Shown: positions 20,272-63,086 of the stretch, one piece after another | Layout of the letters: each line of letters begins with the position of its first letter | How positions within the stretch are numbered: position 1 is the stretch's first letter | Source: an uncultured Aequorivita sp. | GTDB lineage: Bacteria; Bacteroidota; Bacteroidia; Flavobacteriales; Flavobacteriaceae | Length of the DNA: 64,000 bases | Direction: 5' to 3' | NCBI GenBank assembly: GCA_937125455.1 | Contig: CAKZLK010000015.1 | Coordinates: 1 to 64,000, forward strand | Notes under the pieces: model-generated | Told to the model about the DNA's origin: nothing | Seen by the model: only the letters and a program-made list of their open reading frames with translations | The model's database searches: none | Made by a program: the position numbers and the translations under genes

Positions 20272-20315
20272 TTGACAAATATCATTCTTCAATCAGCTTG
20301 TTGATACTATATTTG
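20272..20315 (+). promoter_or_regulatory. FNR-like box and -7 element before the copper block
   Basis: TTGACAAATATCAT (20272-20285) is followed after exactly 22 bases by TATATTTG (20308-20315). The GTG start of the next gene is only 5 bases past the -7 element, so the transcript would be nearly leaderless. Confidence 0.7.
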
Positions 20316-20319
20316 CCCT

Positions 20320-20697
20320 GTGAAAAATGTAATTCTTATAATCACCTCTTTAATAATGCTCACAAAGCCATTATGGCCAGTCGTTGATTATGCAGTGAAT
20401 TATAATTACATTGTAAACGTGCTTTGTGAAAACAAGGATAAACCCGAAATGCACTGTAACGGAAAATGCCATCTAACAAAAGAATTGGCTAAGGAAGCCG
20501 GAGCTGATAGTAAAAATCCGTTTAGCGAAAAAGCTTCAAAGACTGAAATTCCACAATTTATTATTTCAGAAAACCTCAAAGAATATACTTTTGCAATGGA
20601 AACGATTTCAGTTTCCATTGCAAATATTGGCTATATGCCGAATTTAAATACTTCTCTTTTTACCTCTAAGATTCTTCATCCACCTCGCTTGGGATAG
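20320..20697 (+). CDS. Small membrane-anchored Cys/His protein ahead of the copper receptor
   Basis: 125 residues from a GTG start. An N-terminal hydrophobic anchor (about 3-22) is followed by VNYNYIVNVLCENKDKPEMHCNG and KCHLTKEL: three cysteines with Met and His, a likely soft-metal site (C36, C46, C50 approximately). It ends HPPRLG, like the small protein before the CzcA fusion. An ATG at 20357 is possible but would cut into the anchor. No named family; a copper-binding or sensing role is inferred from the site and from the receptor gene 119 bases downstream. Confidence 0.65.
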   Translation: MKNVILIITSLIMLTKPLWPVVDYAVNYNYIVNVLCENKDKPEMHCNGKCHLTKELAKEAGADSKNPFSEKASKTEIPQFIISENLKEYTFAMETISVSIANIGYMPNLNTSLFTSKILHPPRLG

Positions 20698-20712
20698 TTT
20701 ATAGCTAGGATT

Positions 20713-20746
20713 GTGCTTGAAAAATTCCTTTGGAATATTTCAGCAC
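20713..20746. terminator. Long hairpin between the Cys/His gene and the copper receptor
   Basis: GTGCTTGAAAAATTCC pairs with GGAATATTTCAGCAC across a TTT loop, with one mismatch and one bulge. No pure U tract follows (gaccattttcttcc), so it is either a weak terminator or a processing/attenuation structure. Confidence 0.45.
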
Positions 20747-20758
20747 GACCATTTTCTT

Positions 20759-20784
20759 CCTACACAGTTTTGAAACTTTGTAGG
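20759..20784. promoter_or_regulatory. 26-base near-perfect palindrome before the copper receptor
   Basis: The segment runs from CCTACA to TGTAGG, with the inner arms AGTTT and AAACT; only one symmetric pair and the central pair do not match. It contains AAACTTTG (20773-20780), a -7-like element, and ends 31 bases before the receptor ATG. It could be a metal-repressor operator over a promoter or a second RNA hairpin. Confidence 0.45.
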
Positions 20785-20815
20785 TATTCAAAAAACATAT
20801 AAAATATTAACAAAG

Positions 20816-23811: not shown

Positions 23812-23855
23812 ATGACTTTAGTCATTTTAAAACCTATAAATATGGGTTATATTTG
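23812..23855 (+). promoter_or_regulatory. FNR-like box and -7 element before hpf-usp
   Basis: Perfect palindrome ATGACTTTAGTCAT in its arms (23812-23825), exactly 22 bases, then TATATTTG (23848-23855). Transcription would start about 20 bases before the hpf ATG. Confidence 0.75.
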
Positions 23856-23881: not shown

Positions 23882-24181
23882 ATGACAATAAATATCCAAT
23901 ATGTGAAAATGCCTACTAGTGAGGCCATGAACGATTACGTAGAAAAAAAGCTTCAAAAACTTGCTGTTAAATATGAATGGCTTATTAGAGCCGAAGTAAG
24001 TTTTAAAATGGAAAACAACGTATACGGAAAAGGCAACATTTGTGAAATTGAACTGAGTCTACCGGGTCCCAAAATTTTTGCAACATCAAAAGAAGCAACT
24101 TTTGAAGCAGCAGCAAAAGAAACAATTTCAGATTTAGAAAAACAGCTTAAAAAACGCAAGACAAAATTCACAACACACTAA
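23882..24181 (+). CDS. hpf: Ribosome hibernation-promoting factor (HPF/YfiA family, short form)
   Basis: Binds the 30S decoding region and keeps ribosomes idle in stress or stationary phase. At 99 residues it is a short-type protein: the beta-alpha-beta-beta-beta-alpha pattern is visible from TINIQYVKMP to the basic C-terminus LEKQLKKRKTKFTTH. There is no long-HPF dimerisation domain. A USP gene starts 10 bases later, and an FNR-like box lies in the promoter, suggesting induction when oxygen falls. Confidence 0.88.
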   Translation: MTINIQYVKMPTSEAMNDYVEKKLQKLAVKYEWLIRAEVSFKMENNVYGKGNICEIELSLPGPKIFATSKEATFEAAAKETISDLEKQLKKRKTKFTTH

Positions 24182-24191: not shown

Positions 24192-25028
24192 ATGAAAAAA
24201 ATATTAGTTCCCGTAGATTTCTCCAAGCATTCCGAATACGCAATAGAAGTTGCTGCAGGCATTGCAAAAAAGCAAAATGCTGAAATTATTGCAGTACATA
24301 TGATGGGTCTAACCGATGCCGTTTTAACTAAAGATGAAAGTAAAGAAGTCTTTGAAGCGATGTATTACATGAAACTTGCTGAAAAACGCTTTGCAGAATT
24401 TTTAGATAAAGATTACTTAGAAGGCATTAAGGTTACAGATACCGTTCACAATTATAAAATCTTTAGTGAACTGAATGATGTTGCAAGCGATTTTGAAGCA
24501 GACTTAATTATTATGGGATCACACGGTAGTTCTGGCTTAAAAGAGGTTTTCGTAGGAAGTAATACCGAAAAGGTAGTGCGTACTTCCGAAATTCCAGTTT
24601 TAGTTATTAAACATCGCGTAGAGAAATTCAATCCTAAATTAGGTGTGTTTGCATGTGACTTTTTAGAAAATTCGGTGGGTCCATACATAAAAGCAAAAAA
24701 GTTGTTTAGCGCGCTAGATATTAATATGGAATTGCTCTATGTTAACCTTGCAGGCAATTTTCATAGCACACGTGAAATTGAAAAAAGAATCCTAAACTTT
24801 TTGAATAGTGCTGGAGAAACAAATCCGTTGGAAAGTCTAAACAAAGTTGTTCAATACAATGAATATTCTGTAGAAGCTGGAATTTTTGGCTATAGCCAAG
24901 TAAGTAACGCCGATATAATTGCGCTTCCAACACATGGTCGCCAAGGCTTGGCACACTTTTTCTCTGGAAGCATAGGTGAGGATGTAGTCAACCATTCGGA
25001 ATTGCCGGTAATGACTTTTAAGGTATAA
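24192..25028 (+). CDS. Universal stress protein, tandem UspA domains
   Basis: 278 residues, two Usp folds (1-145 and about 150-278). The first domain has the ATP-binding signature GSHGSSG...GSNTEKVV (G-x2-G-x9-GS). The second keeps LPTHGRQGLAHFFSGSIGEDVV. It lies 10 bases after hpf and shares its promoter. One of six USP genes in the window, and the one in which both halves best keep the nucleotide-binding glycines. Confidence 0.9.
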   Translation: MKKILVPVDFSKHSEYAIEVAAGIAKKQNAEIIAVHMMGLTDAVLTKDESKEVFEAMYYMKLAEKRFAEFLDKDYLEGIKVTDTVHNYKIFSELNDVASDFEADLIIMGSHGSSGLKEVFVGSNTEKVVRTSEIPVLVIKHRVEKFNPKLGVFACDFLENSVGPYIKAKKLFSALDINMELLYVNLAGNFHSTREIEKRILNFLNSAGETNPLESLNKVVQYNEYSVEAGIFGYSQVSNADIIALPTHGRQGLAHFFSGSIGEDVVNHSELPVMTFKV

Positions 25029-27710: not shown

Positions 27711-28115
27711 TTAATCTTTCAAGAGTTGCTTCAGTTTTGTGAGCATGATCACTTCACTTTTGTTTTTCCCCGAAAAGGAGTTAGCGATAGCATTTGCTGT
27801 CTTCCAAATCAATTGTTTTCGATCTTTAGTGAAAAGGCTGGGATTTTCCGTTTTATAATCTGCAAAGCTTTCGAAACAATCTTGGGCGTCCAACTGCTCA
27901 TAGTCAAACCAATCAAAAACAACCTCAATCTGGTATGCGGCATCGGTGTGGAAAGGATCTTCATAATCATCAAGATTCTCCCATTGTTTAGATACAATTT
28001 GCTTTAAAGTATCATACTCCTCTTCGCGCACCATTTTGTCTGCGGCGGCAATAGAATAAAAAAGTTCACCCATTTTTTGATAAAATAGAAGTTGGGGTTT
28101 ATCTAAATTTCCCAT
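27711..28115 (-). CDS. TerB-like small protein
   Basis: 134 residues, all-alpha, cytosolic and acidic. The pattern YQKMGELFYSIAAADKMVREEEYDTLKQIV resembles the TerB/DjlA N-terminal helical repeat, with acidic side chains that bind metal in TerB. The similarity is visible by eye only. It is divergent from the PAS kinase gene with a 110-base spacer. Confidence 0.55.
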   Translation of the reverse strand: MGNLDKPQLLFYQKMGELFYSIAAADKMVREEEYDTLKQIVSKQWENLDDYEDPFHTDAAYQIEVVFDWFDYEQLDAQDCFESFADYKTENPSLFTKDRKQLIWKTANAIANSFSGKNKSEVIMLTKLKQLLKD

Positions 28116-28175
28116 AAAGCTATAATTTTAGGTTCTTCAAAGGTGTAAAGCTAAGTTGTATTTCAGTGAAATATT

Positions 28176-28221
28176 ATGATATTGATCAGTTAACAAAAAC
28201 TATTTAAAATCCTTACTTTTG
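28176..28221 (+). promoter_or_regulatory. FNR-like box before the PAS kinase, off-register
   Basis: ATGATATTGATCAG (28176-28189) fits the window's FNR-like box except for the last base. The nearest -7 element TACTTTTG (28214-28221) is 24 rather than 22 bases downstream. The kinase ATG is only 4 bases beyond, implying a leaderless message if this -7 is used. It would allow autoregulation of the kinase-regulator pair. Confidence 0.5.
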
Positions 28222-28225: not shown

Positions 28226-29461
28226 ATGAAGGTTTTTGACCAAAAAAAAGATAATGTATTCAAAATTCTTTCTGAATCTATTTCGGAAGGTATTGTTATC
28301 GTTAACGAAAAACAGGAAGTTGTCACTTCCAACGAAGCAGCTGAAAGAATGTTTGGCTACGGTTCTCATGAGCTTTTAGGGGAAAAGCTAGATGTTCTGA
28401 TTCCGAAGGAATATCGCAGCAGCCATCCTAAACAGGTTGAAGCGTTTATGGATAAAAGTGATCCACGCCAAATGGGCCACGGACGTGATCTTTATGGATT
28501 GCGAAAAGATGGAACCACATTTCCAGTGGAAGCGGGCCTAAATCCGTTTGAGGTTTATGGAAACAAATACGTGATGGCTTTGGTTACCGATATTTCCATC
28601 CGTAAGAATCAGGAGCTGGAAATAATTGAGCTCAACGTATCATTAGAACACAAAATTGAAGAACGCACCAAGGAACTTCAAAAAACCATCAAAGAACTAA
28701 AAGAAGAAGTTACCAAGCGCAAGCAAGCCGAGCATAAAATGAAGGAATCGCTGCGGAAGGAGCGCGAGTTGAATGAGTTGAAAACCAAGTTTCTTTCACT
28801 GGTTTCGCATGAATTCAAAACACCTTTGAGCGGGATTCTTACCTCGGCTACACTTGCAGGAAAATATACTGAAACAGATCAGCAAGACAAAAGGGAAAAG
28901 CATTTAAAAACTATTCAAAGTAAAGTAAAATATTTAAATAATATTCTGAATGACTTTTTGTCTATTGAACGTTTGGAATCTGGTAAAGCCACTTATAAAT
29001 TTGAAATTTTTCCGTTGAGCAAAGTGGTAAACGAGGTGATATACAACGCCAATATGCTATTAAAAGATGGTCAGAAAATTAAATATCCAAGTAATATTGA
29101 TGAAATAACGGTAAATTTTGATGAAAAAATTCTTGAACTTTCATTGACCAACCTTATAAATAACGCCATAAAATACTCTCCCGAATATACTACGATTGAT
29201 GTTGTTGTGGTTCAAAAACAATCAGCTATCGAAATAAAAATAATTGATGAAGGCATGGGTATCCCAAAAAGCGAACAGAAATTTATTTTCAACAGATATT
29301 TTCGTGCTGAAAATGCTCTTTTAGATCAGGGAACTGGAATTGGTCTTAATATTGTGAAGAGCCATTTGGAAAATCTTAGTGGTAAAATTACCTTTGAAAG
29401 TGAAGAAGGAAAAGGGAGTACATTTACAATAATCTTCCCAACGAACAATAATTTAAGCTAA
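28226..29461 (+). CDS. PAS-domain histidine kinase, possibly FixL-like
   Basis: Cytosolic sensor kinase of 411 residues: PAS (about 10-125), coiled coil (about 130-185), HisKA with phospho-acceptor H195 in LSLVSHEFKTPLSG, HATPase with N box NLINNAIKYSPE, G1 DEGMGIP and G2 GTGIGLNIVK. No transmembrane segment. The PAS stretch YRSSH67 ... SDPRQMGHGR87 ... RKDGTTFPVE aligns well with the heme PAS of FixL, where that histidine binds heme and the arginine contacts O2. The same pattern also occurs in non-heme PAS domains, so O2 sensing is a hypothesis. The response regulator starts one base after its stop. Confidence 0.85.
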   Translation: MKVFDQKKDNVFKILSESISEGIVIVNEKQEVVTSNEAAERMFGYGSHELLGEKLDVLIPKEYRSSHPKQVEAFMDKSDPRQMGHGRDLYGLRKDGTTFPVEAGLNPFEVYGNKYVMALVTDISIRKNQELEIIELNVSLEHKIEERTKELQKTIKELKEEVTKRKQAEHKMKESLRKERELNELKTKFLSLVSHEFKTPLSGILTSATLAGKYTETDQQDKREKHLKTIQSKVKYLNNILNDFLSIERLESGKATYKFEIFPLSKVVNEVIYNANMLLKDGQKIKYPSNIDEITVNFDEKILELSLTNLINNAIKYSPEYTTIDVVVVQKQSAIEIKIIDEGMGIPKSEQKFIFNRYFRAENALLDQGTGIGLNIVKSHLENLSGKITFESEEGKGSTFTIIFPTNNNLS

Positions 29462-29462: not shown

Positions 29463-30515
29463 ATGAAAAATATACTCCTTATCGAAGACGATAGTGCGTT
29501 AAGAGAAAACACTGCTGAGCTTTTGGAGCTTTCAGGCTATAAGGTTTCTACTGCACCCAATGGGAAAATTGGTATTGAAAAAGCTAAAAAGGAAAAGCCA
29601 AATGTTATTATTTGTGATATAATGATGCCCGAAATAGATGGTTATGGCGTTTTAGAGGCCATAGCTTTAGAAGAAGATACAAAACACATTCCTTTTATTT
29701 TTCTATCTGCCAAAACTGAACATAAAGAAATACGAAAGGGGATGGATATGGGCGCAGATGATTATCTCACAAAACCATTTGATGAAGATGAGTTGTTGAG
29801 TGCCATAGAAAGCCGTTTGGCAAAGGCGAGTATTTTGGAAAAGCATAAAAACAATCAAGATAAAGAAAATGCAGTAGATGAAGAAAGCCCTCAAAACCTC
29901 AATCAGTTAAAAAACTTTTTTTGTGATGAAGGTGAAGTGTCTACATATAAAAAAGGGGAAACAATTTATAGCAAGGGTGAGCACTCCAACAGTCTTTTTC
30001 TTATTCTTAAAGGCGTTGTGAAAACACATACAATGGATGCCAATGCCAAAGAACTCATCACGGGGCTATATAAGGCTGATGATTTTCTGGGTTTCACTAC
30101 TTTTGACGATAACATTCCTTACAGCGAATCATCCACAGCCTTGGAGGAGACCGAGTTAGTTGGCGTTTCAAAAAAATATGTAAAGGATATTTTGAAAAAA
30201 AGCCAAGACATTTCTTTGGAATTAATGAATCTTCTCACTGATAATCTTTCCGAGGTGAAACAACAATTGCTTAAAATGGCATATAGTTCAGTTCGAAAAA
30301 AAACAGCGGCAACTATTCTTCAATTTGTGGAGATCATGGACAAGAAACCTGGAGCACCCTTTAGAATTTCTCGAAACGATTTATCTACTACCGCTGGAAT
30401 AGCTACTGAAAGCTTGATCAGGACGCTTTCAGACTTTAAGAGGGATGGCCTTATTGAAATTGAAGGGCGGGACATTCGCATTGTTGATCTGGAAAGCTTG
30501 CGGGAGATTGAATAA
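29463..30515 (+). CDS. Response regulator with Crp/FNR-type output (REC-cNMP-HTH)
   Basis: 350 residues. Receiver domain 1-120 with acceptor D52 (CDIMMP) and K104. An acidic linker (about 125-150). Cyclic-nucleotide-binding-like beta roll (about 152-265). A Crp-family winged helix at about 275-345. The recognition helix reads ATESLIRTLSDF, with E316 and R320 in the positions that contact TGA in FNR and Crp. No cysteine cluster for an Fe-S centre, so any oxygen signal must come through the kinase. In effect FixJ and FixK are merged in one chain. The DNA-binding residues suit the NTGAY-N4-RTCAT boxes found across the window. Confidence 0.9.
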   Translation: MKNILLIEDDSALRENTAELLELSGYKVSTAPNGKIGIEKAKKEKPNVIICDIMMPEIDGYGVLEAIALEEDTKHIPFIFLSAKTEHKEIRKGMDMGADDYLTKPFDEDELLSAIESRLAKASILEKHKNNQDKENAVDEESPQNLNQLKNFFCDEGEVSTYKKGETIYSKGEHSNSLFLILKGVVKTHTMDANAKELITGLYKADDFLGFTTFDDNIPYSESSTALEETELVGVSKKYVKDILKKSQDISLELMNLLTDNLSEVKQQLLKMAYSSVRKKTAATILQFVEIMDKKPGAPFRISRNDLSTTAGIATESLIRTLSDFKRDGLIEIEGRDIRIVDLESLREIE

Positions 30516-30567: not shown

Positions 30568-30611
30568 CTGATTTATATCATTTCTTGCCACGAGCTATAT
30601 AAATACTTTTG
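30568..30611 (+). promoter_or_regulatory. FNR-like box and -7 element before usp
   Basis: CTGATTTATATCAT (30568-30581), exactly 22 bases, then TACTTTTG (30604-30611). It lies 19 bases before the USP ATG pair. Confidence 0.75.
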
Positions 30612-30630: not shown

Positions 30631-31470
30631 ATGATGAATATATTAATTCCGACAGATTTTTCCGAAAATGCACAAAATGCCGTTCGGTATGCACTTGAGT
30701 ATTTTTCTGATATTCCCGTGAATTTCTATATTCTGCATATATCACTAAAAGGTTTAGATTATAAAGAGGATGGTGCAGACGAAGGTTTTGAATTTTTCGA
30801 AGACAAGCAGGTTATTCAACAGCCTATAATTAAATTGCAGGAAGAAATTAAAACCTGTAAGCTATTGGCCAAAAACACCAACCATCAATTTTATATGCTT
30901 TATGAAAACATGCTTTTGGTAGAAGCTATTAGAAAACATGTTGCAGAAAAGGAAATTGATTATATAGTAATGGGCACCAAGGGGGCCTCAAAAATTTCCC
31001 AAAAAGAAATAGGAAGCAACACCAGTGAAGTAATTACCAAGGTTAAGTGCCCCGTACTTTTAATTCCTGAAAACGCAACGTTTATTGAAATAAAAAATAT
31101 CGCCTTTTTAACGGATTATAATTATATATACCGTAACAAAGTTATAAAAGCTCTTTCCCAAACACTGCAAATACAAGAAGCTGGCCTAAGGGTACTGCAT
31201 ATTCGTTCACAAAACTCTACGCTAACAGCATCGCAGACAGACAACAAAGGTTTTCTACATTATTTTTTCAGGGAGACCAAGCATAGTTTTCATTTTTTGG
31301 ATAATAAAAATATTGAAACAGGAATCCAAGATTTTGTGGAAACTTGGGAAATAGATATGGTTGCAATTGTGGCAAAAAATCTGAATTTGATTCAACGGCT
31401 ACTTTTCAAACCAATCCTGAATTCAATAAACTACCAAAGCGAAGTCCCTTTTTTAATACTTCACGAGTAG
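30631..31470 (+). CDS. Universal stress protein, tandem domains
   Basis: 279 residues. The ATG is doubled (ATGATG); the second, 30634, gives the family-like MNILIPTDFSENA. The first Usp domain has GTKGASKISQKEIGSN, a good G-x2-G-x9-GS ATP site. The second half lacks the glycine signature (AKNLNLIQRLLF), so it is probably structural. Monocistronic by position, following the kinase/regulator by 115 bases and preceded by an FNR-like box. Confidence 0.88.
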   Translation: MMNILIPTDFSENAQNAVRYALEYFSDIPVNFYILHISLKGLDYKEDGADEGFEFFEDKQVIQQPIIKLQEEIKTCKLLAKNTNHQFYMLYENMLLVEAIRKHVAEKEIDYIVMGTKGASKISQKEIGSNTSEVITKVKCPVLLIPENATFIEIKNIAFLTDYNYIYRNKVIKALSQTLQIQEAGLRVLHIRSQNSTLTASQTDNKGFLHYFFRETKHSFHFLDNKNIETGIQDFVETWEIDMVAIVAKNLNLIQRLLFKPILNSINYQSEVPFLILHE

Positions 31471-31818: not shown

Positions 31819-31862
31819 TTGACAATAGTCATATTTTTATTAAGGTTGATTAGTTAATTTTA
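31819..31862 (+). promoter_or_regulatory. FNR-like box and -7 element before the usp-nuclease operon
   Basis: TTGACAATAGTCAT (31819-31832), exactly 22 bases, then TAATTTTA (31855-31862), one change from TAnnTTTG. It probably drives the five genes from 31889 to 36714. Confidence 0.7.
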
Positions 31863-31888: not shown

Positions 31889-32734
31889 ATGCGAAAAATA
31901 ATAGTCCCTACAGATTTCTCTGAAAACTCATTGAATGCTATCAAGTATGCCACTGAGCTTTTCAAATATAATCATGCTGAAATTTATCTTTTGCATGCTT
32001 TTGCAGATGAAGTTTATGATGCAAAGAATCGTCTTCCTGACGAAATTTTTGATGAGCTTCAAGAAAAAATACTTAAAGAAACAAAAGAAGGGCTAGAGGA
32101 TTTCCGTAAAAAAATAATTTCATTTTCGCCAAACCCTAAACACACCGTACACACGATTGCAGAATTTGGAATGTTAGTAGATTCTGTAAATGATTGGGTG
32201 GAAAAGGAGAATATGGATATAGTTGTGATGGGGACCAAAGGCCAGACTTCTGATAAAAAAATAACCTTTGGTAGCAATACGCTTCAAGTAATCAAATATG
32301 TGAAATGCCCGGTGCTCGCCATTCCAGCTGATTATGGAGATGTGCAGCCTAAAAATATTTTATTCTCAACAGATTTTCAGCTGACTTATAAAAGGCGTGA
32401 GTTAAAATTGGTGAGTAGCATAGCAAAAAGCTTTGTTTCCAAAATCAATTTTCTTTATGTTTCAAAATTTCCATCCTTGTCATTCCGGCAGCAAGACAAC
32501 AAGAACTTTTTAGAAGCTTCTTTTTCTGAAAATCAGGTTATTTTTCATCAAGAAAAAGATAAAGAAGTTACAAATGCAATTAATACCTTTATTATTGAAA
32601 ACCCAATAGATATGTTGGTTATGGTAAATACCCGTCATTCATACCTGGAAAATATACTTTATCAATCAACTATTGAAAAAATTGGATTACATATAGATAT
32701 TCCTTTTTTAGTACTTCAAAATCTTCCTCGTTAA
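31889..32734 (+). CDS. Universal stress protein, tandem domains (first of three)
   Basis: 281 residues. The N-terminus RKIIVPTDFSENSLNA is the Usp start; GTKGQTSDKKITFGSN supplies the nucleotide glycines in the first domain. The second domain (about 150-281) is degenerate. First gene of a run of three USPs separated by 18 and 36 bases. Confidence 0.88.
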   Translation: MRKIIVPTDFSENSLNAIKYATELFKYNHAEIYLLHAFADEVYDAKNRLPDEIFDELQEKILKETKEGLEDFRKKIISFSPNPKHTVHTIAEFGMLVDSVNDWVEKENMDIVVMGTKGQTSDKKITFGSNTLQVIKYVKCPVLAIPADYGDVQPKNILFSTDFQLTYKRRELKLVSSIAKSFVSKINFLYVSKFPSLSFRQQDNKNFLEASFSENQVIFHQEKDKEVTNAINTFIIENPIDMLVMVNTRHSYLENILYQSTIEKIGLHIDIPFLVLQNLPR

Positions 32735-32752
32735 TCTTTTAAATATTTTATA

Positions 32753-33601: not shown

Positions 33602-33637
33602 TTTTTAAAATAAAGCAATAATCTTAAAACCGAAAAA

Positions 33638-34489: not shown

Positions 34490-34492
34490 TCT

Positions 34493-35341: not shown

Positions 35342-35343
35342 AT

Positions 35344-36936: not shown

Positions 36937-36980
36937 CTGACCATTATCATACTTTCATTCTGAAGCAAAATTTACCTTTA
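36937..36980 (+). promoter_or_regulatory. FNR-like box and -7 element before YceI
   Basis: CTGACCATTATCAT (36937-36950), exactly 22 bases, then TACCTTTA (36973-36980). Lies at the end of the longest gene-free stretch (36715-37002), in which nothing else was recognised. Confidence 0.68.
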
Positions 36981-48181: not shown

Positions 48182-48225
48182 ATGATCAATATCATTTTTG
48201 AATCTATAGAAATACTTTAGGTTTA
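48182..48225 (+). promoter_or_regulatory. FNR-like box and -7 element before a lipoprotein gene
   Basis: ATGATCAATATCAT (48182-48195), exactly 22 bases, then TAGGTTTA (48218-48225). The leader would be about 100 bases long. The box is also about 100 bases from tetR but in the wrong arrangement for it. Confidence 0.6.
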
Positions 48226-49822: not shown

Positions 49823-49866
49823 CAAATGTACTTTTTAAGTATTATTTCTAAAATGATTTCCATCAT
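49823..49866 (-). promoter_or_regulatory. FNR-like box and -7 element before usp (minus strand)
   Basis: ATGATTTCCATCAT (49853-49866; arms palindromic) and, exactly 22 bases downstream on the minus strand, TACATTTG (49830-49823). Confidence 0.77.
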
Positions 49867-49964: not shown

Positions 49965-50008
49965 ATGATAAAAATCATATTCTATCCACCACTCTAGTGT
50001 TAATTTTG
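49965..50008 (+). promoter_or_regulatory. FNR-like box and -7 element of the nos cluster
   Basis: ATGATAAAAATCAT (49965-49978), exactly 22 bases, then TAATTTTG (50001-50008), a perfect -7 element. Drives cytochrome c, fasciclin, nosZ and probably the whole cluster. It also shows that the TTG at 49997 is not the start of the first gene. Confidence 0.8.
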
Positions 50009-50032: not shown

Positions 50033-50536
50033 ATGAAAAGCATAATGAAATCTATAACCGCAATTGCAATTTTAAGTTTAATAAGCTGTGGTGGTAAAGA
50101 AGAAAAAAAGAATGATAGTATTCAAATTGGCCAAAAACCAGCTGCAACCGAAACCCCAAAAGAGGAACCAGCTGCTTCTACAAAGCCTTCGGAAACTATT
50201 GACTTAACAAATAAAGGCGTTGGCCCAATTAAAAATTTAGAACTTCCTGCTGAAATTGATCAAGCAATGGCAGCTAAAGGGATGGAGGTTTATAAAAACA
50301 AGTGTATGGCTTGCCACAAACCGGACAAAAAATTCATTGGTCCTGCCCCAAAAGGAATTTTATTAAGACGAACTCCTGAATGGATTATGAACATGATTCT
50401 AGATCCTGAGGATATGATTAAAAAGGATCCATTGGCAAAAGCACTTTTGGTAGAGTTTAACGGTTCGCCAATGGCAAATCAAAACCTTACCGAAGAAGAA
50501 GCACGACAAGTACTTGAATATTTTAGAACACTTTAA
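50033..50536 (+). CDS. Mono-heme cytochrome c lipoprotein of the nos cluster
   Basis: 167 residues from ATG 50033. Lipobox LISC (C19), an Ala/Pro/Glu-rich linker (about 30-60) and a class I cytochrome c domain: heme site CMACH (91-95) and distal methionine M147 in GSPMANQNLT. Probable electron donor to NosZ, anchored on the outer face of the inner membrane. The alternative TTG at 49997 is inside the promoter. Confidence 0.88.
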   Translation: MKSIMKSITAIAILSLISCGGKEEKKNDSIQIGQKPAATETPKEEPAASTKPSETIDLTNKGVGPIKNLELPAEIDQAMAAKGMEVYKNKCMACHKPDKKFIGPAPKGILLRRTPEWIMNMILDPEDMIKKDPLAKALLVEFNGSPMANQNLTEEEARQVLEYFRTL

Positions 50537-50604: not shown

Positions 50605-51183
50605 ATGAAAACAACACTTAAACTGTTATTTTTTTCAGCTGCAATACTCGTGTTTTCAGCTTGTAAAAACGAAACAAAAACCGAAGGGGAAGAAACTGTG
50701 ATGGAAACTTCCGCAAAAAGTGATGCCCAAAATGAAAAACAGGGTCAAGCTTTTATTGAAAATGATGAATCTAAACCCAACGTACTTCAAATTGCAATAG
50801 CCTCGCCAGACCATACAACGCTAGTTGCTGCTGTCCAGGCTGCAGGATTGGAAAATTCACTGGTTAATGCAGGTCCATTGATGGTGTTTGCTCCAACCAA
50901 TGCAGCATTTGAGGCACTGCCAGCAGGTACTGTTGAGAATCTTCTTAAACCTGAAAATAAAGAACAGCTCGCTTCTATTTTAAAAAATCATGTTACTCCA
51001 GGCAATTATTCAAAAGATTTTTTGAAGAAATTTAAAAAGCTTGGTCAAGCAGGAGGTGAAAGCATTTCTGTTGAAGTGAAAGGGGAGGATGTATATGTTG
51101 GAGGAGCTAAAATTCTAGCAAGTATTCCAGCCGGTAACGGAATTGTACACGTGGTGGACAAAGTGATATTGCCAACGAACTAA
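50605..51183 (+). CDS. Fasciclin-domain lipoprotein of the nos cluster
   Basis: 192 residues; lipobox FSAC (C20), charged linker (about 22-50) and one FAS1 domain (about 52-190) with GPLMVFAPTNAAFEALPAG and NGIVHVVDKVILP. Fasciclin genes recur in Bacteroidetes nos clusters, perhaps as an assembly or docking partner of NosZ. Function there is unknown. Confidence 0.85.
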   Translation: MKTTLKLLFFSAAILVFSACKNETKTEGEETVMETSAKSDAQNEKQGQAFIENDESKPNVLQIAIASPDHTTLVAAVQAAGLENSLVNAGPLMVFAPTNAAFEALPAGTVENLLKPENKEQLASILKNHVTPGNYSKDFLKKFKKLGQAGGESISVEVKGEDVYVGGAKILASIPAGNGIVHVVDKVILPTN

Positions 51184-51211: not shown

Positions 51212-53179
51212 ATGAAAAAAGTAATTAATATTTTAGTTTCCCTAGTTATGGTCGCTGGTTTAGTGAGTTGTAACAATGGTGAAAACAAAAAAGGAAACAA
51301 GGGGCAGGGTGGTTTGGCTACCAATGCCGCTGAAAAAGTATACGTAGCTCCTGGTGATCATGATGAGTTTTATGCTTTTATTTCTGGAGGATTCAGTGGA
51401 CAGCTTGCTGTTTACGGTTTGCCATCTGGGCGATTGTTTAAGGTAATTCCCGTGTTTTCACAAGACCCTGAAAAAGCATATGGTTACAATGAAGAAAGTA
51501 AGCCTATGCTCAATACTTCTTATGGTTTTGTGCCTTGGGGAGATGCGCATCACCCGGATATTTCACAAACAAACGGTGAGCTTGATGGACGGTGGGTTTT
51601 TATAAATGAAAATAATACGCCACGAATTGCGCGTATAGACCTAACCACTTTTGAAACTGCTGAAATTATCGAAGTACCAAACAGTGCTGGTAACCACAGT
51701 TCTTCTTTTGTTACAGAAAATACGGAATATGTTGTTGCGGGAACTCGTTTCTCAGTGCCAATTCCACAGCGCGATATGCCTATTAAGGATTATAAAGGAA
51801 ATTTTAAAGGAGCATTATCTTTCATTAGTGTTGATCCTGAGTCAGGTAATATGTCAATCAAATTCCAATTGTTGATGCCTGGATTTGATTATGATCTTTC
51901 ACACCCTGGACGTGACAAATCTCATGGTTGGTTCTTCTTTACTACTTATAATACAGAAGAGGCCAATTCATTATTGGAAGTAAATGCCTCTCAAAACGAT
52001 AAGGATTTTATTGCAGCCGTAAACTGGAAGAAAATTGAAGAATATGTAAATAATGGTGGGGGAACAAAAGTTCCTGCAAAATATGCACATAACATTTATA
52101 GTGATGAAACACATTCGGCCACTTCAACTATGATGGACGAAGTGCTTACAGTAAATCCAGTCGATGTGCCTGGGGCTATATTTTTCCTTCCAACCCCTAA
52201 ATCCCCACACGGTTGTGATGTTGACCCAACTGGAGAATATATTGTTGGTAACGGTAAACTTTCTGCTGACTTAACTGTTCATTCATTTACAAAAATGCTC
52301 GCAGCTATCGAAAATAAGAAGTTTGATGGCGAAGCTTATGGTATTCCAATCTTAAAATTTGAGGATGTATTGGCAGGAACTGTGAAGCAACCAGGCTTAG
52401 GCCCATTGCACACAGAGTTTGACGGTAAAGGTAATGCCTATACCACTTTCTTTATTTCTTCTGAAGTAGTAAAATGGAAATTGGGAACCTGGGAGGTTGT
52501 AGATCGTCAACCTGCGTACTATTCTGTAGGTCACGGTATGATTCCAGGAGGAAACTCACGCAAGCCTTTCGGTAAGTATTTTGTTTCAATGAATAAGATT
52601 ACTAAAGACCGCTATTTGCCAACAGGACCAGAAGTTACCCAGTCTGCGCAGTTGTATGACATTAGTGGTGATAAAATGGAACTTTTGTTGGATTTCCCAA
52701 CCATTGGTGAGCCACATTACGCTGCGGGAATCCCTGCAGATATTGTTGCAAAAAACTCAAGGCAAATATTCAAATTATCTGAAAATAAACACCCTTATGC
52801 CACGATTACTGATGGTGATGCACGGGTAGAGCGTAAAGGAAACGAAGTACATATTTATATGACCATGATCCGAAGCCATTTTAATCCAGATAACATTGAA
52901 GGTGTGAAAGTAGGCGATAAGGTTTTCTTCCACGTTACCAACCACGAGCAAGATTACGATGTACCCCACGGAATCAGTATGATTGGAGCAAACACTTCTG
53001 AGTTGTTAATAATGCCAGGACAGACCGAAACTTTTATCTGGGAACCAAAATTGCCTGGTGTATGGCCGTTTTATTGCACAGACTTCTGTTCTGCATTGCA
53101 CCAAGAAATGCAAGGTTATGTTCGTGTGAGCCCTGCAGGTTCTGGAACAGAGCTTAAATGGTCTTTGGGCGAAGATTAA
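51212..53179 (+). CDS. nosZ: Nitrous-oxide reductase, clade II type
   Basis: 655 residues. Reduces N2O to N2 in the periplasm. The Sec-type lipoprotein signal (VSC, C20) instead of a Tat signal marks clade II. N-terminal seven-bladed propeller with CuZ histidines (for example DAHHPD and GNHSS); C-terminal cupredoxin with the CuA set C622, C626, H630 and M633 (CTDFCSALHQEM). All ligands appear intact. Second in importance only to the cyt c in a cluster with NosL, D, F and Y. Confidence 0.96.
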   Translation: MKKVINILVSLVMVAGLVSCNNGENKKGNKGQGGLATNAAEKVYVAPGDHDEFYAFISGGFSGQLAVYGLPSGRLFKVIPVFSQDPEKAYGYNEESKPMLNTSYGFVPWGDAHHPDISQTNGELDGRWVFINENNTPRIARIDLTTFETAEIIEVPNSAGNHSSSFVTENTEYVVAGTRFSVPIPQRDMPIKDYKGNFKGALSFISVDPESGNMSIKFQLLMPGFDYDLSHPGRDKSHGWFFFTTYNTEEANSLLEVNASQNDKDFIAAVNWKKIEEYVNNGGGTKVPAKYAHNIYSDETHSATSTMMDEVLTVNPVDVPGAIFFLPTPKSPHGCDVDPTGEYIVGNGKLSADLTVHSFTKMLAAIENKKFDGEAYGIPILKFEDVLAGTVKQPGLGPLHTEFDGKGNAYTTFFISSEVVKWKLGTWEVVDRQPAYYSVGHGMIPGGNSRKPFGKYFVSMNKITKDRYLPTGPEVTQSAQLYDISGDKMELLLDFPTIGEPHYAAGIPADIVAKNSRQIFKLSENKHPYATITDGDARVERKGNEVHIYMTMIRSHFNPDNIEGVKVGDKVFFHVTNHEQDYDVPHGISMIGANTSELLIMPGQTETFIWEPKLPGVWPFYCTDFCSALHQEMQGYVRVSPAGSGTELKWSLGED

Positions 53180-57597: not shown

Positions 57598-58203
57598 ATG
57601 AAGAAATTAATTGAACATTCCCTTTCAAAAGCAATGGATTACACCCATTACAACTTATTTTTTAAGCAATTGGTAGCAGAGAAAAGAACTACTGGAGCGC
57701 AAACCTTAGAAAAAATAAATTATACAAAATTGAATTTCAGTCGTACAAAAAGACTGGACAAAACAGCTGAGATCGTCCGAGAGTATATTGACGTTTTCAA
57801 AAATATTCCCGACAGACAAACGTGGCTTGTAATAAGCGAACCCTGGTGTGGTGATGCGGCACAGATGCTTCCCTTTTTGAATAAAATTGCCCAGCTTTCC
57901 GAAAATATAGATTTAAAGATCGTACTACGTGACGAAAATCCGGAGCTTATGGATAATTTTTTAACAAATGGTTCTCGCTCCATTCCGGTTTTACTTATAA
58001 TCGATGAAAATTTTAATGTAACCCAAACATGGGGTCCGCGTTCTAAAACTGCTACAAAACTTGTAAAAGATTATAAAGTCAAACACGGAAAGATTGATGC
58101 CACTTTAAAAGAAATGCTTCAAATTTGGTACAACAATGACAAAGGTACTTCCGTGGTGAAGGATCTTTCCGAGATAGTTAATTCAACAAAAGCAATTTGC
58201 TGA
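57598..58203 (+). CDS. Thioredoxin-fold protein with a single active-site cysteine
   Basis: 201 residues, thioredoxin-like family. The site reads SEPWCGDAAQML, with only one cysteine where thioredoxins have CxxC; SIPVLLIID carries the cis-proline. Such YtpP-like proteins may act as bacillithiol/thiol transferases or chaperones. The gene stands alone, 80 bases after nosY. A second cysteine occurs only at the C-terminus (KAIC). Confidence 0.75.
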   Translation: MKKLIEHSLSKAMDYTHYNLFFKQLVAEKRTTGAQTLEKINYTKLNFSRTKRLDKTAEIVREYIDVFKNIPDRQTWLVISEPWCGDAAQMLPFLNKIAQLSENIDLKIVLRDENPELMDNFLTNGSRSIPVLLIIDENFNVTQTWGPRSKTATKLVKDYKVKHGKIDATLKEMLQIWYNNDKGTSVVKDLSEIVNSTKAIC

Positions 58204-58243
58204 TATTTATCATTTTCAATGATTGGTAAATTCCCCAAATTTG
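58200..58243 (+). promoter_or_regulatory. FNR-like box and -7 element before the CoA-transferase
   Basis: CTGATATTTATCAT (58200-58213) begins inside the preceding stop region; exactly 22 bases later is CAAATTTG (58236-58243), one change from TAnnTTTG. Confidence 0.65.
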
Positions 58244-58258: not shown

Positions 58259-59527
58259 ATGCAAATCGTTTCTGCCGAAGAGGCTGTATCTATAGTAAAA
58301 TCAAATGACCGGGTGTATTTTCAGGGAGCTGCAATGACACCCAATTTATTGATTGACAGTTTATGCGAAAGGTATCATGAACTTAAAAATGTCGAAATAA
58401 TACAAATCCATACCCATGGTGATGCCAAGTATTCGCGAGAGCCATACAGCAATACCTTTAAACTATCCAGTTGTTTTGTTGGCGAAAATGTTCGAAAAGG
58501 AGTGAATACACTTAACGGTGATTACATTCCTGTTTTTTTGAGCGAAATTCATTGGCTTTTTAGAAGAAATATTCTACCATTGGATGTTGCTTTTATTCAA
58601 GTTTCACCACCAGATAGCCATGGGTTTTGTTCCTTGGGAGTTTCGGTTGATGTTACTTTACCAGCTATCCAAACGGCAAAGAAAGTTGTTGCGCAAATAA
58701 ATCCAAAAGTTCCCAGAACTCATGGAGATGGTATAATTCATATTAAAAATATAGATTTTGCCGTTGAAGTGGATATACCTATTCACGCTTCTGTAATGGG
58801 AGCTCCCACAGAGGTGGAGACGACCATCGGGAAGCACGTTGCTAGTTTGGTTGAAGATGGCGCCACGTTGCAAATGGGGATTGGTAATATACCCAATGCC
58901 GTACTTCACAATTTGCAAAACCACAAAAGACTGGGAATACACACCGAAATGTTCAGCGATGGCATTCTCCCCCTTATTGAAAAAGGTATTATTACTGGTG
59001 AGGATAAAGTGATTAAAACAGGAAAAATAGTTACTTGTTTTGCAATGGGAACTCAAAAATTATACGATTTTATTGATGATAACCCAATTGTACACTTCAA
59101 GGAAGCAGCCTATACAAATGATACGGCAATCATTCGTCAAAACCCCAAAGTAACGGCTATAAATAGTGCTATAGAAATTGATTTGACGGGACAAGTTTGT
59201 GCAGATAGCATTGGGATGTATCAATATTCTGGTGTTGGCGGCCAAATGGATTTTATCCGTGGCGCTTCTTTGTCAGAAAGAGGAAAACCCATTATTGCAA
59301 TGCCGTCAACAACAAACAAAGGTCTTTCTAAAATCACCCCCTTTTTAAAAGAAGGAGCCAGCGTTACTACAACTAGAGCGCATGTTCATTATGTAGTAAC
59401 TGAGTACGGGGTAGTGAATCTTTTCGGAAAAGGACTAGAGCAACGTACCAAAGCCCTTATTTCCATAGCCCATCCCAAACATAGGGAAGCTTTGGAAATA
59501 GAAGCTAAAAGGAGATTTGACAACTAA
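58259..59527 (+). CDS. Acetyl-CoA hydrolase/transferase family protein
   Basis: 422 residues from MQIVSAEEAVSIVKSNDRVYF (58259); a longer TTG reading from 58223 runs through the -7 element and is rejected. Glutamate-type CoA-transferase with N-terminal GAAMTPNLLIDSL, substrate loop GIGNIPNAVL and the C-terminal GVGGQMDFIRGA. Probably moves CoA between acetyl-CoA and another acid (for example succinate or 4-hydroxybutyrate). An FNR-like box suggests a role in acetate production under low oxygen. Confidence 0.85.
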   Translation: MQIVSAEEAVSIVKSNDRVYFQGAAMTPNLLIDSLCERYHELKNVEIIQIHTHGDAKYSREPYSNTFKLSSCFVGENVRKGVNTLNGDYIPVFLSEIHWLFRRNILPLDVAFIQVSPPDSHGFCSLGVSVDVTLPAIQTAKKVVAQINPKVPRTHGDGIIHIKNIDFAVEVDIPIHASVMGAPTEVETTIGKHVASLVEDGATLQMGIGNIPNAVLHNLQNHKRLGIHTEMFSDGILPLIEKGIITGEDKVIKTGKIVTCFAMGTQKLYDFIDDNPIVHFKEAAYTNDTAIIRQNPKVTAINSAIEIDLTGQVCADSIGMYQYSGVGGQMDFIRGASLSERGKPIIAMPSTTNKGLSKITPFLKEGASVTTTRAHVHYVVTEYGVVNLFGKGLEQRTKALISIAHPKHREALEIEAKRRFDN

Positions 59528-59594: not shown

Positions 59595-60023
59595 ATGTTT
59601 TCAAAAGCATGCGAATATGGTATCAGGGCTGTTCTATTTATAGCTAAACAATCCCAAAATGGGGTACGACCAAATATAACGGAAATAGCTAAGGCGGTAG
59701 ACTCTCCAGAACCATTTACAGCTAAGGTCTGTCAACAATTAGTGAGAGAAAATATTTTACTCTCCAAAAAGGGGCCTAATGGTGGATTTTATTTGAAAAA
59801 AGATTCTACTTTAAAGCTTATAGAAGTAATTACTGCGATAGATGGTGATAAACTTTTTAAAGGTTGTGGTTTGGGACTTCAAGAATGTTCTCCAGAACAC
59901 CCTTGTCCTTTACACACGCAGTTTATGGGCGTTCGCAACAGATTGAAATATATGTGCGAAAATACATTGGTAATGGAGCTTGCCTTAGACTTAGAGGAAG
60001 GTGAAACTTTTTTGAAAGTTTAA
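59595..60023 (+). CDS. Rrf2-family regulator, NsrR-like
   Basis: 142 residues. Winged helix with ITEIAKAVDSPEPFTAKVCQQLV; Fe-S-type cysteines CGLGLQECSPEHPC (C-x6-C-x5-C), close to the NsrR arrangement. NsrR senses nitric oxide. It precedes the hemerythrin and RIC genes, forming an NO/Fe-S-stress group. Confidence 0.87.
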   Translation: MFSKACEYGIRAVLFIAKQSQNGVRPNITEIAKAVDSPEPFTAKVCQQLVRENILLSKKGPNGGFYLKKDSTLKLIEVITAIDGDKLFKGCGLGLQECSPEHPCPLHTQFMGVRNRLKYMCENTLVMELALDLEEGETFLKV

Positions 60024-60595: not shown

Positions 60596-60639
60596 ATGAT
60601 TTAGGTCATATTCTACTGCTTATTTTCTTTTAAAATTTG
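60596..60639 (+). promoter_or_regulatory. FNR-like box and -7 element before ric
   Basis: ATGATTTAGGTCAT (60596-60609), exactly 22 bases, then AAAATTTG (60632-60639), one change from TAnnTTTG. Confidence 0.68.
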
Positions 60640-60670
60640 CATCATAATTATTCATTAAATTTTAAAAGCG

Positions 60671-61396
60671 ATGACAAAACTTCAAGAAAAAACGGTAGCC
60701 GATTTGGTTACCGAAAATATAAAAGCCGCACACATATTTAAAAAATACGGAATAGATTTTTGCTGTGGCGGTGGGATAAGTATCAAAAGAGCCTGTGAAA
60801 GGGCGAAAATTGATCCAACAATTTTAGAATCAGAACTTCTAAATTTGGAAACCATACCTGACCGCGCTTCAGATTATAATAGTTGGAAGCTTGATTTTTT
60901 GACAGACCATATTATTAACCTGCACCACGTATACATAGAGGAAAGCAGTCCGCTATTGCTTCAATATTCTAAAAGGGTGAACCAAGTACACGGGCATCAT
61001 TATATCGAATTAGCTGAAATAGAGGAATTGGTAAAAAATGTAGTGCAGGAGTTGGCCGTTCATATGAAGAAAGAAGAATTGATTCTTTTTCCTTTCATTA
61101 AGAAATTAGTACAAGCCGAACGCGAAGCAAGCGATATTCCTGCAATCCATTTTGGAACCGTTGAGAATCCTATCAATATGATGGAAGCAGAACACGAGCA
61201 AGCTGGAGATATAATGCGTAAAATTGCGAAGCTTAGCAACAATTATACACCTCCCGAAAATGCGTGTAATACATATCGCGCGTTTTATGCAAAACTTGAC
61301 GAGTTTGAACAAGATTTGCACCAACATGTGCATTTGGAAAATAATATTCTTTTCCCAAAAGCACTGAACTTGGAAAAAAAATTAAAAAACAAGTAA
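60671..61396 (+). CDS. ric: Iron-sulfur cluster repair di-iron protein (RIC/ScdA/YtfE)
   Basis: 241 residues. ScdA N-terminal domain (about 1-60) with KKYGIDFCCGGGISIKRAC, then a hemerythrin-like di-iron domain with histidines in LHHVYIEE, VHGHHYIEL, HMKKEELILFP, EAEHEQAG and HVHLENNILFP. Repairs Fe-S clusters after nitrosative or oxidative damage. The promoter has an FNR-like box. Confidence 0.93.
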   Translation: MTKLQEKTVADLVTENIKAAHIFKKYGIDFCCGGGISIKRACERAKIDPTILESELLNLETIPDRASDYNSWKLDFLTDHIINLHHVYIEESSPLLLQYSKRVNQVHGHHYIELAEIEELVKNVVQELAVHMKKEELILFPFIKKLVQAEREASDIPAIHFGTVENPINMMEAEHEQAGDIMRKIAKLSNNYTPPENACNTYRAFYAKLDEFEQDLHQHVHLENNILFPKALNLEKKLKNK

Positions 61397-61453
61397 ATCG
61401 ATTCAAATTATTCCCGGCCCCAAATCGTAGATTTTTTTTGATTGGTTTTTAGA

Positions 61454-61517: not shown

Positions 61518-61522
61518 AAAGC

Positions 61523-62731
61523 TTGATAGATTTAAAAAAACATATCATAATTGCACTGGCATATTTCTTAATTGTGGCCTTGATGGGTTTGTTGCTGCGG
61601 TTTTTCTTTGTAACTCCCATTGCACTAAATTATAAGTTTATCCTGCATGCACATTCACACACTGCATTGTTGGGATGGATTTATTTGGGGTTGACAACCT
61701 TGATCTATAAACTTTTTCTTTCAGAGGCGCAAAACCTAAAAATTTACAAAAGCATTTTCCTCTTCACGAATATTTGTATTGTGGGTATGTTGTTAACCTT
61801 TCCTATCCAGGGATATGCATTGTTTTCCATTATATTTTCTACACTTTTTTTGTTTGCGTCCTATTGGTTTTCCGGGTTTGCACTAATGTATGTTCCGCAA
61901 CAATTTAAAAACCGTTTTTCATGGAAACTTGTAAAAACAGCACTTTTATACCTAATTATTTCCAGCATTGGGCCGTGGGCGATAGGAGGGGTAATGGCGA
62001 CTTTGGGGCCGGAATCCATTTGGTATAAAACGTCAATATATTTCTATCTTCATTTTCAATATAATGGTTGGTTTATTTTAACACTTTTGGGTGTTCTGTT
62101 TTATATTTTTGAAGAAAACGGAATTGTTTTCAATACCCATAAATTGAAATCTTTTTTTCTTCTTTTGAATTTTGGAATATTATTCACTTTCTTCCTTTCC
62201 GTGCTTTGGATTACCCCGCCAATTATTTTTTACATATTCGGGTTGATGGGAGCTGTGGCACAAGGTTTGGCTTTTTACGAGCTTTATTTTTTATTGAAAC
62301 AACAGTTTCCAATTTTGAAAAAACTATTTTCTTCTCCTGCTTTTTCTCTTCTAAAAATCGCAGGTATTTTAATGATAATTAAACTTTTGGTGCAACTATT
62401 TTCTGCGATTCCATATGTTGCTGATTTGGCTTATAGGCTCAAAGATTTTATAATTGGTTACTTGCACATGGTTTTCCTAGGAATTGTAATTACGAGCTTA
62501 CTCGTTTTTTTAAAGTATTTTAAGTTGGTAGTGCTACCCAGATATTTTTTACCCCTCTATTTTTTTGCATTTGCAACAACTGAATTTTTGATTTTTTATA
62601 AAGCCTTCGCTTTTTGGTTGAAATTGCCATTTTTTTCTCTCTATTATACGCTTTTGGCAGTTTTTAGTTTTGCTTTTCCAATGGCTGTAGCCTTACTTCT
62701 TTTTAAAAACATCTTCATCCAAAAACGCTAA
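61523..62731 (+). CDS. Polytopic membrane protein with conserved histidines
   Basis: 402 residues from a TTG (an upstream stop excludes earlier starts; next Met is residue 21). About 11-12 helices. H-containing segments FILHAHSHTALLGW (about 40-53), YLHFQYNGW (about 175) and GYLHMVFLG (about 313) recall heme-copper oxidase/NorB or NnrS-type proteins. No copper or full heme ligand set can be assigned by eye. Its place after the NO-defence genes suggests NO or N-oxide metabolism. Confidence 0.6.
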   Translation: MIDLKKHIIIALAYFLIVALMGLLLRFFFVTPIALNYKFILHAHSHTALLGWIYLGLTTLIYKLFLSEAQNLKIYKSIFLFTNICIVGMLLTFPIQGYALFSIIFSTLFLFASYWFSGFALMYVPQQFKNRFSWKLVKTALLYLIISSIGPWAIGGVMATLGPESIWYKTSIYFYLHFQYNGWFILTLLGVLFYIFEENGIVFNTHKLKSFFLLLNFGILFTFFLSVLWITPPIIFYIFGLMGAVAQGLAFYELYFLLKQQFPILKKLFSSPAFSLLKIAGILMIIKLLVQLFSAIPYVADLAYRLKDFIIGYLHMVFLGIVITSLLVFLKYFKLVVLPRYFLPLYFFAFATTEFLIFYKAFAFWLKLPFFSLYYTLLAVFSFAFPMAVALLLFKNIFIQKR

Positions 62732-62746
62732 AAACCCCTAAATTTT

Positions 62747-62760
62747 CTTACATTAGTTAC
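62747..62760 (+). promoter_or_regulatory. Degenerate GTAAC-type site before DUF2892
   Basis: CTTACATTAGTTAC has a perfect right arm (GTTAC) and the same N4 as the 14032 site, but a changed left arm. No good -7 element lies 22 bases downstream (TTTTTATG). Weak member of the GTAAC class. Confidence 0.35.
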
Positions 62761-62810
62761 CTTAAATTGACATAATTACTGTTTTTTATGAAACAATTAA
62801 ATTTTGAGAT

Positions 62811-63020
62811 ATGAAAAAAAACATGGGCGGCGCAGACCGTACAATTAGAATTTTGATAGCTGCAATTATGGTGGCTTTGTATTATTTCGAGGTGATAAAC
62901 GGAACACTGGCCATTGTTTTGCTCGTTCTTGCAGGTATTTTTGTATTAACCAGCTTCGTTAGTTTTTGTCCGCTCTATACAATTTTTGGAATAAGCACGT
63001 GTAAGGTCAAGAAAAATTAA
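62811..63020 (+). CDS. DUF2892 small membrane protein, second copy
   Basis: 69 residues, start MKKNMGGADRTIRILIAAIM, two helices and a Lys-rich end. DUF2892 family, shorter tail than the copy at 20014 and with CPLYTIFGISTC. The family is often linked to rhodanese and sulfur enzymes. Confidence 0.85.
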   Translation: MKKNMGGADRTIRILIAAIMVALYYFEVINGTLAIVLLVLAGIFVLTSFVSFCPLYTIFGISTCKVKKN

Positions 63021-63042
63021 TTTGCCTTTTACCGATAGGTTG

Positions 63043-63086
63043 GTGATATTTATCATTTTTTAAAACACTTACTTTACTAAACTTTG
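63043..63086 (+). promoter_or_regulatory. FNR-like box and -7 element before ccoI
   Basis: GTGATATTTATCAT (63043-63056), exactly 22 bases, then AAACTTTG (63079-63086), one change from TAnnTTTG. In proteobacteria fixI/cco genes are the classical FNR/FixK targets. Confidence 0.7.

Follow-up and report, generated by a model that had tools for sequence, protein, structure and literature searches.

The window analysed here, a 64,000-nucleotide stretch from an uncultured Aequorivita sp. of the Flavobacteriaceae (positions 1 to 64,000 of contig CAKZLK010000015.1, assembly GCA_937125455.1), contains twelve palindromic boxes of the type NTGAY-N4-RTCAT, each located exactly 22 bases upstream of a -7 promoter element. 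The promoter code formed by box and spacing is real, strong, and widely conserved. The box, its spacing, its co-occurrence with candidate regulators, its conserved targets, and the key residues of the regulator are all visible in the sequences we compared. Probably, the boxes are dimer sites of an activator with the Crp/FNR fold, here a protein that fuses a receiver to a Crp-type output (REC-Crp) under a heme-PAS-like kinase, and the activator would act from a class II position at low oxygen. The first-pass annotation of the window had proposed that one promoter code is shared by genes of low-oxygen life and denitrification, and had pointed to a candidate regulator encoded in the window. This proposal is borne out, whereas its count of twelve regulon members proved too low: about 31 sites are present in the source genome when a relaxed -7 element is allowed.

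All 12 boxes were found in the window sequence where the first-pass annotation had placed them. The window holds 13 cores of the pattern TGAYN4RTCA, whereas 100 order-3 Markov simulations gave 3.5 on average and never more than seven; in nine of the 13 the element TAnnTTTR follows exactly 22 bases past the 14-mer (simulated mean 0.02, maximum one). Three further boxes have a weaker -7 element at 22 bases: CAAATTTG for the box at 58200, AAAATTTG for the box at 60596, and AAACTTTG for the box at 63043. The box at 28176 had been singled out as the exception among the twelve, with the kinase promoter off at 24 bases. On the plus strand this box does end in CAG rather than CAT, with the -7 at 24 bases; on the minus strand, however, it reads CTGATCAATATCAT, has its -7 element TAGCTTTA at exactly 22 bases, and faces the divergent gene for a 134-amino-acid protein (27711-28115). 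The 22-base spacing stands for the other eleven boxes, the exception was assigned to the wrong gene, and all 12 boxes share the spacing once the box at 28176 is read on the minus strand. The thirteenth core, at 13923, is absent from the list of the first-pass annotation and was rejected as a site; it has no -7 element and lies close to the end of an open reading frame.

When the spacing was scanned genome-wide, as the first-pass annotation had suggested, a strong peak appeared at 22 bases in the source genome, in 53 genomes of the family, and in 80 named loci; an absence of this preference was looked for and not found. In the source genome (3.73 Mb, 63 contigs), 27 of the 47 pairs of box and -7 element counted over 30 spacings sit at 22, and the reversed-pattern control gave 16 pairs across this range, none of them at 22; with a relaxed -7 element the count at 22 rises to 31 and the control to one. 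The 53 family genomes together have 815 pairs at 22 (reversed control 30), against 1792 over the other 29 spacings, a mean of 61.8 each. The 80 named loci around REC-Crp genes (1.24 Mb) were picked for the presence of REC-Crp and are mutually related; they contain 302 pairs at 22, 16 at 24, and nine at 23, and no other spacing between 0 and 60 has more than nine. In a sample of 197 genomes of the class, strict 22-spaced matches are missing from 28 and present in 169, many of which contain just one to five; one genome of this sample (G305) has 27 matches, with a control of zero. We are moderately confident that the regulon is common in the Flavobacteriaceae, with traces across the class Bacteroidia, and that its rigid layout was kept while the sensor was swapped: an FNR-like iron-sulfur protein in many genomes, and a heme-PAS kinase with a receiver-FixK fusion in others, the latter being the only one in the source genome and in genomes sampled from five other genera.

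TAnnTTTG occupies positions -12 to -5 of mapped transcription starts in Flavobacterium psychrophilum (PMC9723704). Because of this published position and the 22-base gap, the 14-mer falls at -48 to -35, with its centre at -41.5. We take -41.5 to be the class II position of Crp/FNR activators, and the boxes combine this centre, for start positions taken from F. psychrophilum, with a constant distance from the core promoter; the class II geometry that the first-pass annotation had suspected, with a centre near -41.5, is supported on this footing. We propose that low oxygen at the heme would render the kinase active, that the active kinase would phosphorylate REC-Crp at D52, and that the resulting dimer would bind (A/C)TGAY-N4-RTCAT. 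The bound activator would replace the -33 element and contact the sigma-A polymerase from -41.5; the fixed distance of 22 bases to TAnnTTTG would follow from a rigid contact between activator and polymerase. The expected outcome would be a joint rise of copper supply, the cbb3 oxidase (ccoNO, ccoI), HemN-type heme synthesis, and nitrous oxide (N2O) reduction (nosZ), together with iron-sulfur repair (ric), ribosome hibernation (hpf), and several units of universal stress protein (USP) genes. Binding, phosphorylation, heme, the response to oxygen, and activation as the sign of the regulation are steps that we infer. The same box would be read in many other Flavobacteriaceae by an FNR-like protein of the one-component type, whose recognition helix is nearly identical.

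The proposed sensor is a histidine kinase with PAS, HisKA, and HATPase domains (28226..29461, plus strand; Pfam). Among solved structures (PDB sequences) its PAS domain is closest to DosP (E 9e-19) and FixL (E 4e-17), and these two proteins account for 13 of the 14 PDB sequences at E <=1e-6; the remaining one belongs to a different kinase (E 9e-11). H67 and R87 of the kinase align with residues of DosP, where the position of the Arg is Ala in chain 9bgv. The His aligned with H67, His77, is presumably the heme ligand in DosP. Bound oxygen is stabilised by Arg97 of DosP and by the Arg of FixL (PMC4263535). With a putative proximal His and distal Arg in the PAS domain, followed by HisKA and HATPase, the protein has the predicted make-up of a FixL-type kinase. 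E. coli DosP and rhizobial FixL are, among proteins of solved structure, the closest to it in PAS sequence and share the aligned His and Arg; the kinase of the window differs from both in its proposed output partner, which would be REC-Crp. In the kinase alignment (the window and 78 of the 80 loci, with one row gapped at both PAS positions), H195 is present in 79 of 79 rows, H67 in 75 of the 78 readable ones, and R87 in 56 of these 78. The heme-PAS-like pocket may have been retuned in some lineages (28226-29461 compared with the kinases of L085-L164).

An alternative explanation is that the regulator is right but its signal is not oxygen, the kinase answering nitric oxide, the redox state, or another ligand of the heme-PAS domain. 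The targets nosZ and ric are typical of nitrogen-oxide metabolism, an Rrf2-family gene (59595-60023) lies upstream of ric, and in 22 of the 78 kinases R87 is Leu, Met, or another residue, all of which would fit such a signal. However, ccoNO, the CcoI-type ATPase, and the HemN-type protein are classic low-oxygen targets, and the kinase of the window has both H67 and R87. Oxygen limitation also raises the cbb3 oxidase and heme genes in F. psychrophilum (PMC9723704). We therefore consider a signal other than oxygen unlikely and continue with oxygen as the favored one.

The proposed reader, REC-Crp (29463..30515, plus strand), combines a receiver (PF00072), a cyclic-nucleotide-binding fold (PF00027), and a Crp-type helix-turn-helix (PF13545); the latter two domains score above cut-off and place the protein in the Crp/FNR family by fold. 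In an alignment of the window protein with those of 80 of the 80 loci, the phospho-acceptor D52 and the residues E316, I319, and R320 are present in 81 of 81 proteins, and the recognition helix reads TESLIR in 53 of the 81. The recognition helix thus carries, as E316 and R320, the Glu and Arg that read TGA in the Crp/FNR family. The protein is not of the FNR type, which has an N-terminal cysteine cluster and no receiver, nor is it a FixJ, since its receiver is joined to a Crp-type helix-turn-helix; the output domain of FixJ is of the LuxR type. It has two Cys, of which C51, the residue directly before D52, is the only invariant one (81/81). The genes for the kinase and REC-Crp are adjacent in 77 of the 80 named loci, the closest of which are from Aequorivita, with up to 87% identity.

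From its sequence, REC-Crp is most likely the protein that reads the boxes in the source genome. It is the best candidate because an FNR-like one-component orthologue (E 1e-35 or less) was not detected there. In a search for further Crp proteins of this genome, made with PF13545 only, two more one-component proteins came into question. The protein at C19:59940 was rejected as a reader, its helix VVVSR having no Glu. The one at C59:101049-101633 has the helix ETVIR, with the same Glu, Ile, and Arg, and occurs in 24 of the 53 family genomes; if it were the reader of the boxes, then REC-Crp would have other or partly shared targets. This explanation is distinctly improbable, as C59-type proteins are missing from 29 of the 53 family genomes, among them three with 48, 42, and 42 sites (G061, G081, and G220), two genomes that have neither a C59-type nor an FNR-like protein (G076 and G133) keep 10 and 16 sites, and the sites are most densely clustered where the REC-Crp gene is found, with 12 of the 31 in the window.

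The distribution of the sites among genomes is consistent with two kinds of reader. FNR-like proteins were found in 130 of 246 genomes of the order. In 19 such proteins from 20 loci of relatives, a count that omits an f4 protein (L084) and two further Crp proteins (L079, L082), four cysteines, including an N-terminal CxxC, are invariant (19/19 each), and all 19 helices read TE(S/T)xIR. Across the 246 genomes the median number of sites is 16 where both proteins are present (n=27, total 470, control 14), 16 with REC-Crp only (n=9, total 145, control 2), 6 with the FNR-like protein only (n=103, total 653, control 37), and 0 with neither (n=107, total 76, control 9), the last total still being above its control. 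For this comparison REC-Crp was called at full length and E <1e-70 (the match list reached E 2.8e-22) and the FNR-like protein at E <=1e-35, with at most 8 and at most 11 first-look candidates scored per genome, so that misses are possible. Nine of the ten family genomes without an FNR-like protein have REC-Crp, and the tenth (G236) has neither protein and a single site. Within the family the median is 17 sites in the 28 genomes with REC-Crp and nine in the 25 others (p 1.9e-6), and within one genus it is 16 (8 genomes) versus eight (17 genomes; p 0.0076), kinship being ignored in both tests. Outside the family REC-Crp is not tied to more sites: the median is four in eight genomes, versus five for genomes with the FNR-like protein only.

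Several observations weigh against the proposed regulator and its reach. Genome size and kinship confound the comparison across the order, because the genomes with neither protein are mostly small and from other families. The REC-Crp genomes of one family (f4) have few sites, from two to seven, and the C59-type protein could, judged by its helix, read similar half-sites. The distal Arg is replaced in the 22 kinases mentioned above, mostly by Leu or Met, and H67 in three of the 78. Finally, some USP homologues have no box, for example 19 of the 65 homologues of the USP gene at 31889 and 28 of the 38 homologues of the one at 24192, which is the second gene of its unit. As to the f4 proteins, the helix is ETVSR instead of ESLIR in the five examined of seven (L053, L056-L059), and these proteins may read another box; no clear pattern was found in the boxes around the seven f4 REC-Crp genes.

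Full palindromes number 295 at a spacing of 22, and between 16 and 29 no other spacing has more than three. The upstream half alone occurs 37 times at 22, versus 20 to 51 times at other spacings; both half-sites are needed. The downstream RTCAT lies near the expected -33 position and alone occurs 28 times at 22, versus five to 20 times at other spacings, but the idea that it is merely a -33 element and the palindrome incidental is exceedingly improbable given the 295 full palindromes at 22 and the reversed control of 30 against 815. An origin of the boxes by chance or as ordinary -33 elements is rejected by the simulations, the reversed controls, and the half-site counts. Over the 302 sites of the named loci the outer base of the upstream half is C in 161, A in 92, T in 33, and G in 16, so that 253 have C or A. 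On the downstream side the search pattern stopped at RTCA, yet 295 of the 302 22-spaced sites continue with T; where such a -7 element is missing, the same T follows in 136 of 276 box ends. RTCAT is likewise present in 30 of the 31 relaxed sites of the source genome; the remaining one, C43:156346, was rejected because it has RTCAA and because no open reading frame of at least 70 codons starts within 500 bases downstream. The regulon had been called FNR/FixK-like, but its box is not that of FixK and FNR: their box TTGAT-N4-ATCAA has T outside TGA and A outside TCA, whereas here no more than 33 of the 302 sites have T as the upstream outer base and 295 have T, not the A of that palindrome, downstream.

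The nearest parallel to the proposed system is found in rhizobia, where FixL/FixJ or hFixL/FxkR switches on fixK, and where FixK and the iron-sulfur protein FnrN share the motif TTGAT-N4-ATCAA (PMC7888657; a similar FixK/FnrN motif is given in PMC4999443). In both the FixL-FixJ-FixK and the hFixL-FxkR-FixK relay, as in the arrangement proposed here, a heme-PAS kinase relay and an iron-sulfur one-component protein converge on one palindromic box of cbb3 and other low-oxygen genes (PMC7888657). REC-Crp unites the receiver and the FixK-type output, and there would therefore be no intermediate fixK gene to induce; the fused protein would be a shortened FixLJ-FixK cascade. The flavobacterial box differs from that of the rhizobial Fix system in having A or C, not T, on the outside, and in its Bacteroidota promoter, with TAnnTTTG always 22 bases away. 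The present system shares with E. coli FNR and CRP at class II promoters the TGA-N6-TCA palindrome, the Glu and Arg of the recognition helix, and the centre at -41.5, and the four invariant cysteines of the FNR-like protein of relatives are a further parallel to FNR. REC-Crp, in contrast to FNR, has no N-terminal CxxC, has a receiver, and faces a different outer base; its Ile presumably occupies the position of the Ser of FNR. HcpR of Bacteroides is a Crp/FNR-family regulator of the same phylum and is linked to nitrogen oxides, but its predicted regulon comprises only hcp genes in most Bacteroides (PMC1274295).

The literature search, with most subscription papers outside its reach, listed no match that describes an FNR-type regulon or box in Flavobacteriaceae, and within the literature searched no oxygen regulator is assigned for this family. 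Neither Fnr nor Crp is named in the main text of the paper on oxygen limitation in F. psychrophilum (PMC9723704), and for the Crp/FNR homologues of Flavobacteriales a role in carbon sensing was predicted in a study of wastewater (PMC8510549). With a box at fixed spacing a candidate regulon can be listed from the sequence alone, and regulator, box, and sensor are directly testable. Respiration at high affinity and the reduction of N2O are the processes served by these genes. The shared switch of about thirty promoters hints at the way in which a large, little-studied group of bacteria may adapt to low oxygen.

Several of the units behind the boxes of the window are conserved, together with their 22-spaced box, in the named loci. 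The box at 20272..20315 (plus strand, -7 TATATTTG; here and below the coordinates run from the box to the -7 element) precedes the copper block, which consists of a gene for 125 amino acids (20320-20697), a TonB-dependent copper-type receptor (115 bits, below the NCBIfam cut-off of 472), and a YtkA-like gene. The unit of hpf (23882-24181) and a USP gene (24192-25028; both by Pfam) follows the box at 23812..23855 (plus strand, also TATATTTG), and 30 of 33 hpf homologues have a 22-spaced box. The 134-amino-acid gene behind the minus-strand box at 28146..28189 matched no Pfam or NCBIfam family in the family scans; among its homologues the box is 22-spaced in 40 of 51 and otherwise placed in 10 more. 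The same box on the plus strand stands 24 bases before the kinase -7, TACTTTTG. The kinase promoter was rejected as a class II member, as the box is 22-spaced in none of the 79 readable kinase homologues (two more lie at locus edges); it is 24-spaced in 15 of them (8 named Aequorivita and 7 others), otherwise placed in 30, and missing in 34.

Directly downstream of the REC-Crp gene, the box at 30568..30611 (plus strand, -7 TACTTTTG) precedes a USP gene (30631-31470) whose homologues have a 22-spaced box in 66 of 79 cases. A single box at 31819..31862 (plus strand, TAATTTTA) stands before an array (31889-36714) of three USP genes, an ATP-cone protein (34493-35341), and a beta-CASP nuclease (all by Pfam); homologues of the first USP gene have a 22-spaced box in 41 of 65 cases, and the best NCBIfam matches of the nuclease, Cas14 of type VII and aCPSF1, are both under cut-off. 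Next come the boxes before YceI (box 36937..36980, plus strand, TACCTTTA; gene 37003-37593), of whose homologues nine of 12 have a 22-spaced box, and before a lipoprotein-like gene (box 48182..48225, plus strand, TAGGTTTA; gene 48334-48966) that matched no Pfam or NCBIfam family. A minus-strand box at 49823..49866 (TACATTTG) precedes a USP gene (48982-49806), and the plus-strand box at 49965..50008 (TAATTTTG) precedes the nos unit, with a cytochrome c (50033-50536), a fasciclin-domain protein, and nosZ (51212-53179), a Sec-dependent NosZ by its score of 945 bits versus a cut-off of 625. The fasciclin-domain gene (50605-51183) lies between that for cytochrome c and nosZ. The three boxes with weak -7 elements, all on the plus strand, precede an acetyl-CoA hydrolase/transferase-family gene (box 58200..58243, gene 58259-59527), ric (box 60596..60639, gene 60671-61396), and a CcoI-type P-type ATPase (box 63043..63086) that starts at 63116 and continues past the end of the window. 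The Rrf2-family gene that precedes ric may add a second regulator to this cluster.

The window holds 12 of the 31 relaxed sites of the source genome, and its 78.6-kb contig 14; 18 strict sites lie outside the window. Their targets include a COX1 of the ccoNO type (C15:65.5 kb), a HemN-like radical SAM protein, SQR-like and thioredoxin-reductase-like flavoproteins, and a cation P-type ATPase, as well as MlaE, FadL/OmpP1, a patatin, a WG-repeat protein, a DUF6799 protein, and others without a family; the names that go beyond Pfam are our interpretation. In a second cluster (G000:C38:114707-126007) six 22-spaced sites are packed into about 11 kb; its genes include SQR-like, FadL, patatin, and WG-repeat ones as well as unknown ones.

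For a comparison of regulons we took the genes downstream of 30 of 38 places in three genomes with REC-Crp only and of 30 of 41 places in three genomes with the FNR-like protein only, RTCAT being required of the sites. In the REC-Crp genomes 16 of the 30 genes resemble a target of the source genome (E 1e-6), namely ten USP genes, ccoNO, hemN, a nos-unit cytochrome c (two boxes), a WG-repeat gene, and one weak match; in the FNR genomes the number is nine of 30, with ccoNO twice, hemN, ric, SQR, hpf, the 134-amino-acid gene, YceI, and one USP gene. Since the other 14 and 21 genes match no target of the source genome, the overlap of the two regulons is partial. USP genes turn up more often under REC-Crp (10/30) than in the FNR-only genomes (1/30). 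In one of the REC-Crp-only relatives two 22-spaced boxes (L181 and L184, at G192:C2:143468 and 143570) lie about 100 bases apart before what appears to be a single nos-unit cytochrome c gene.

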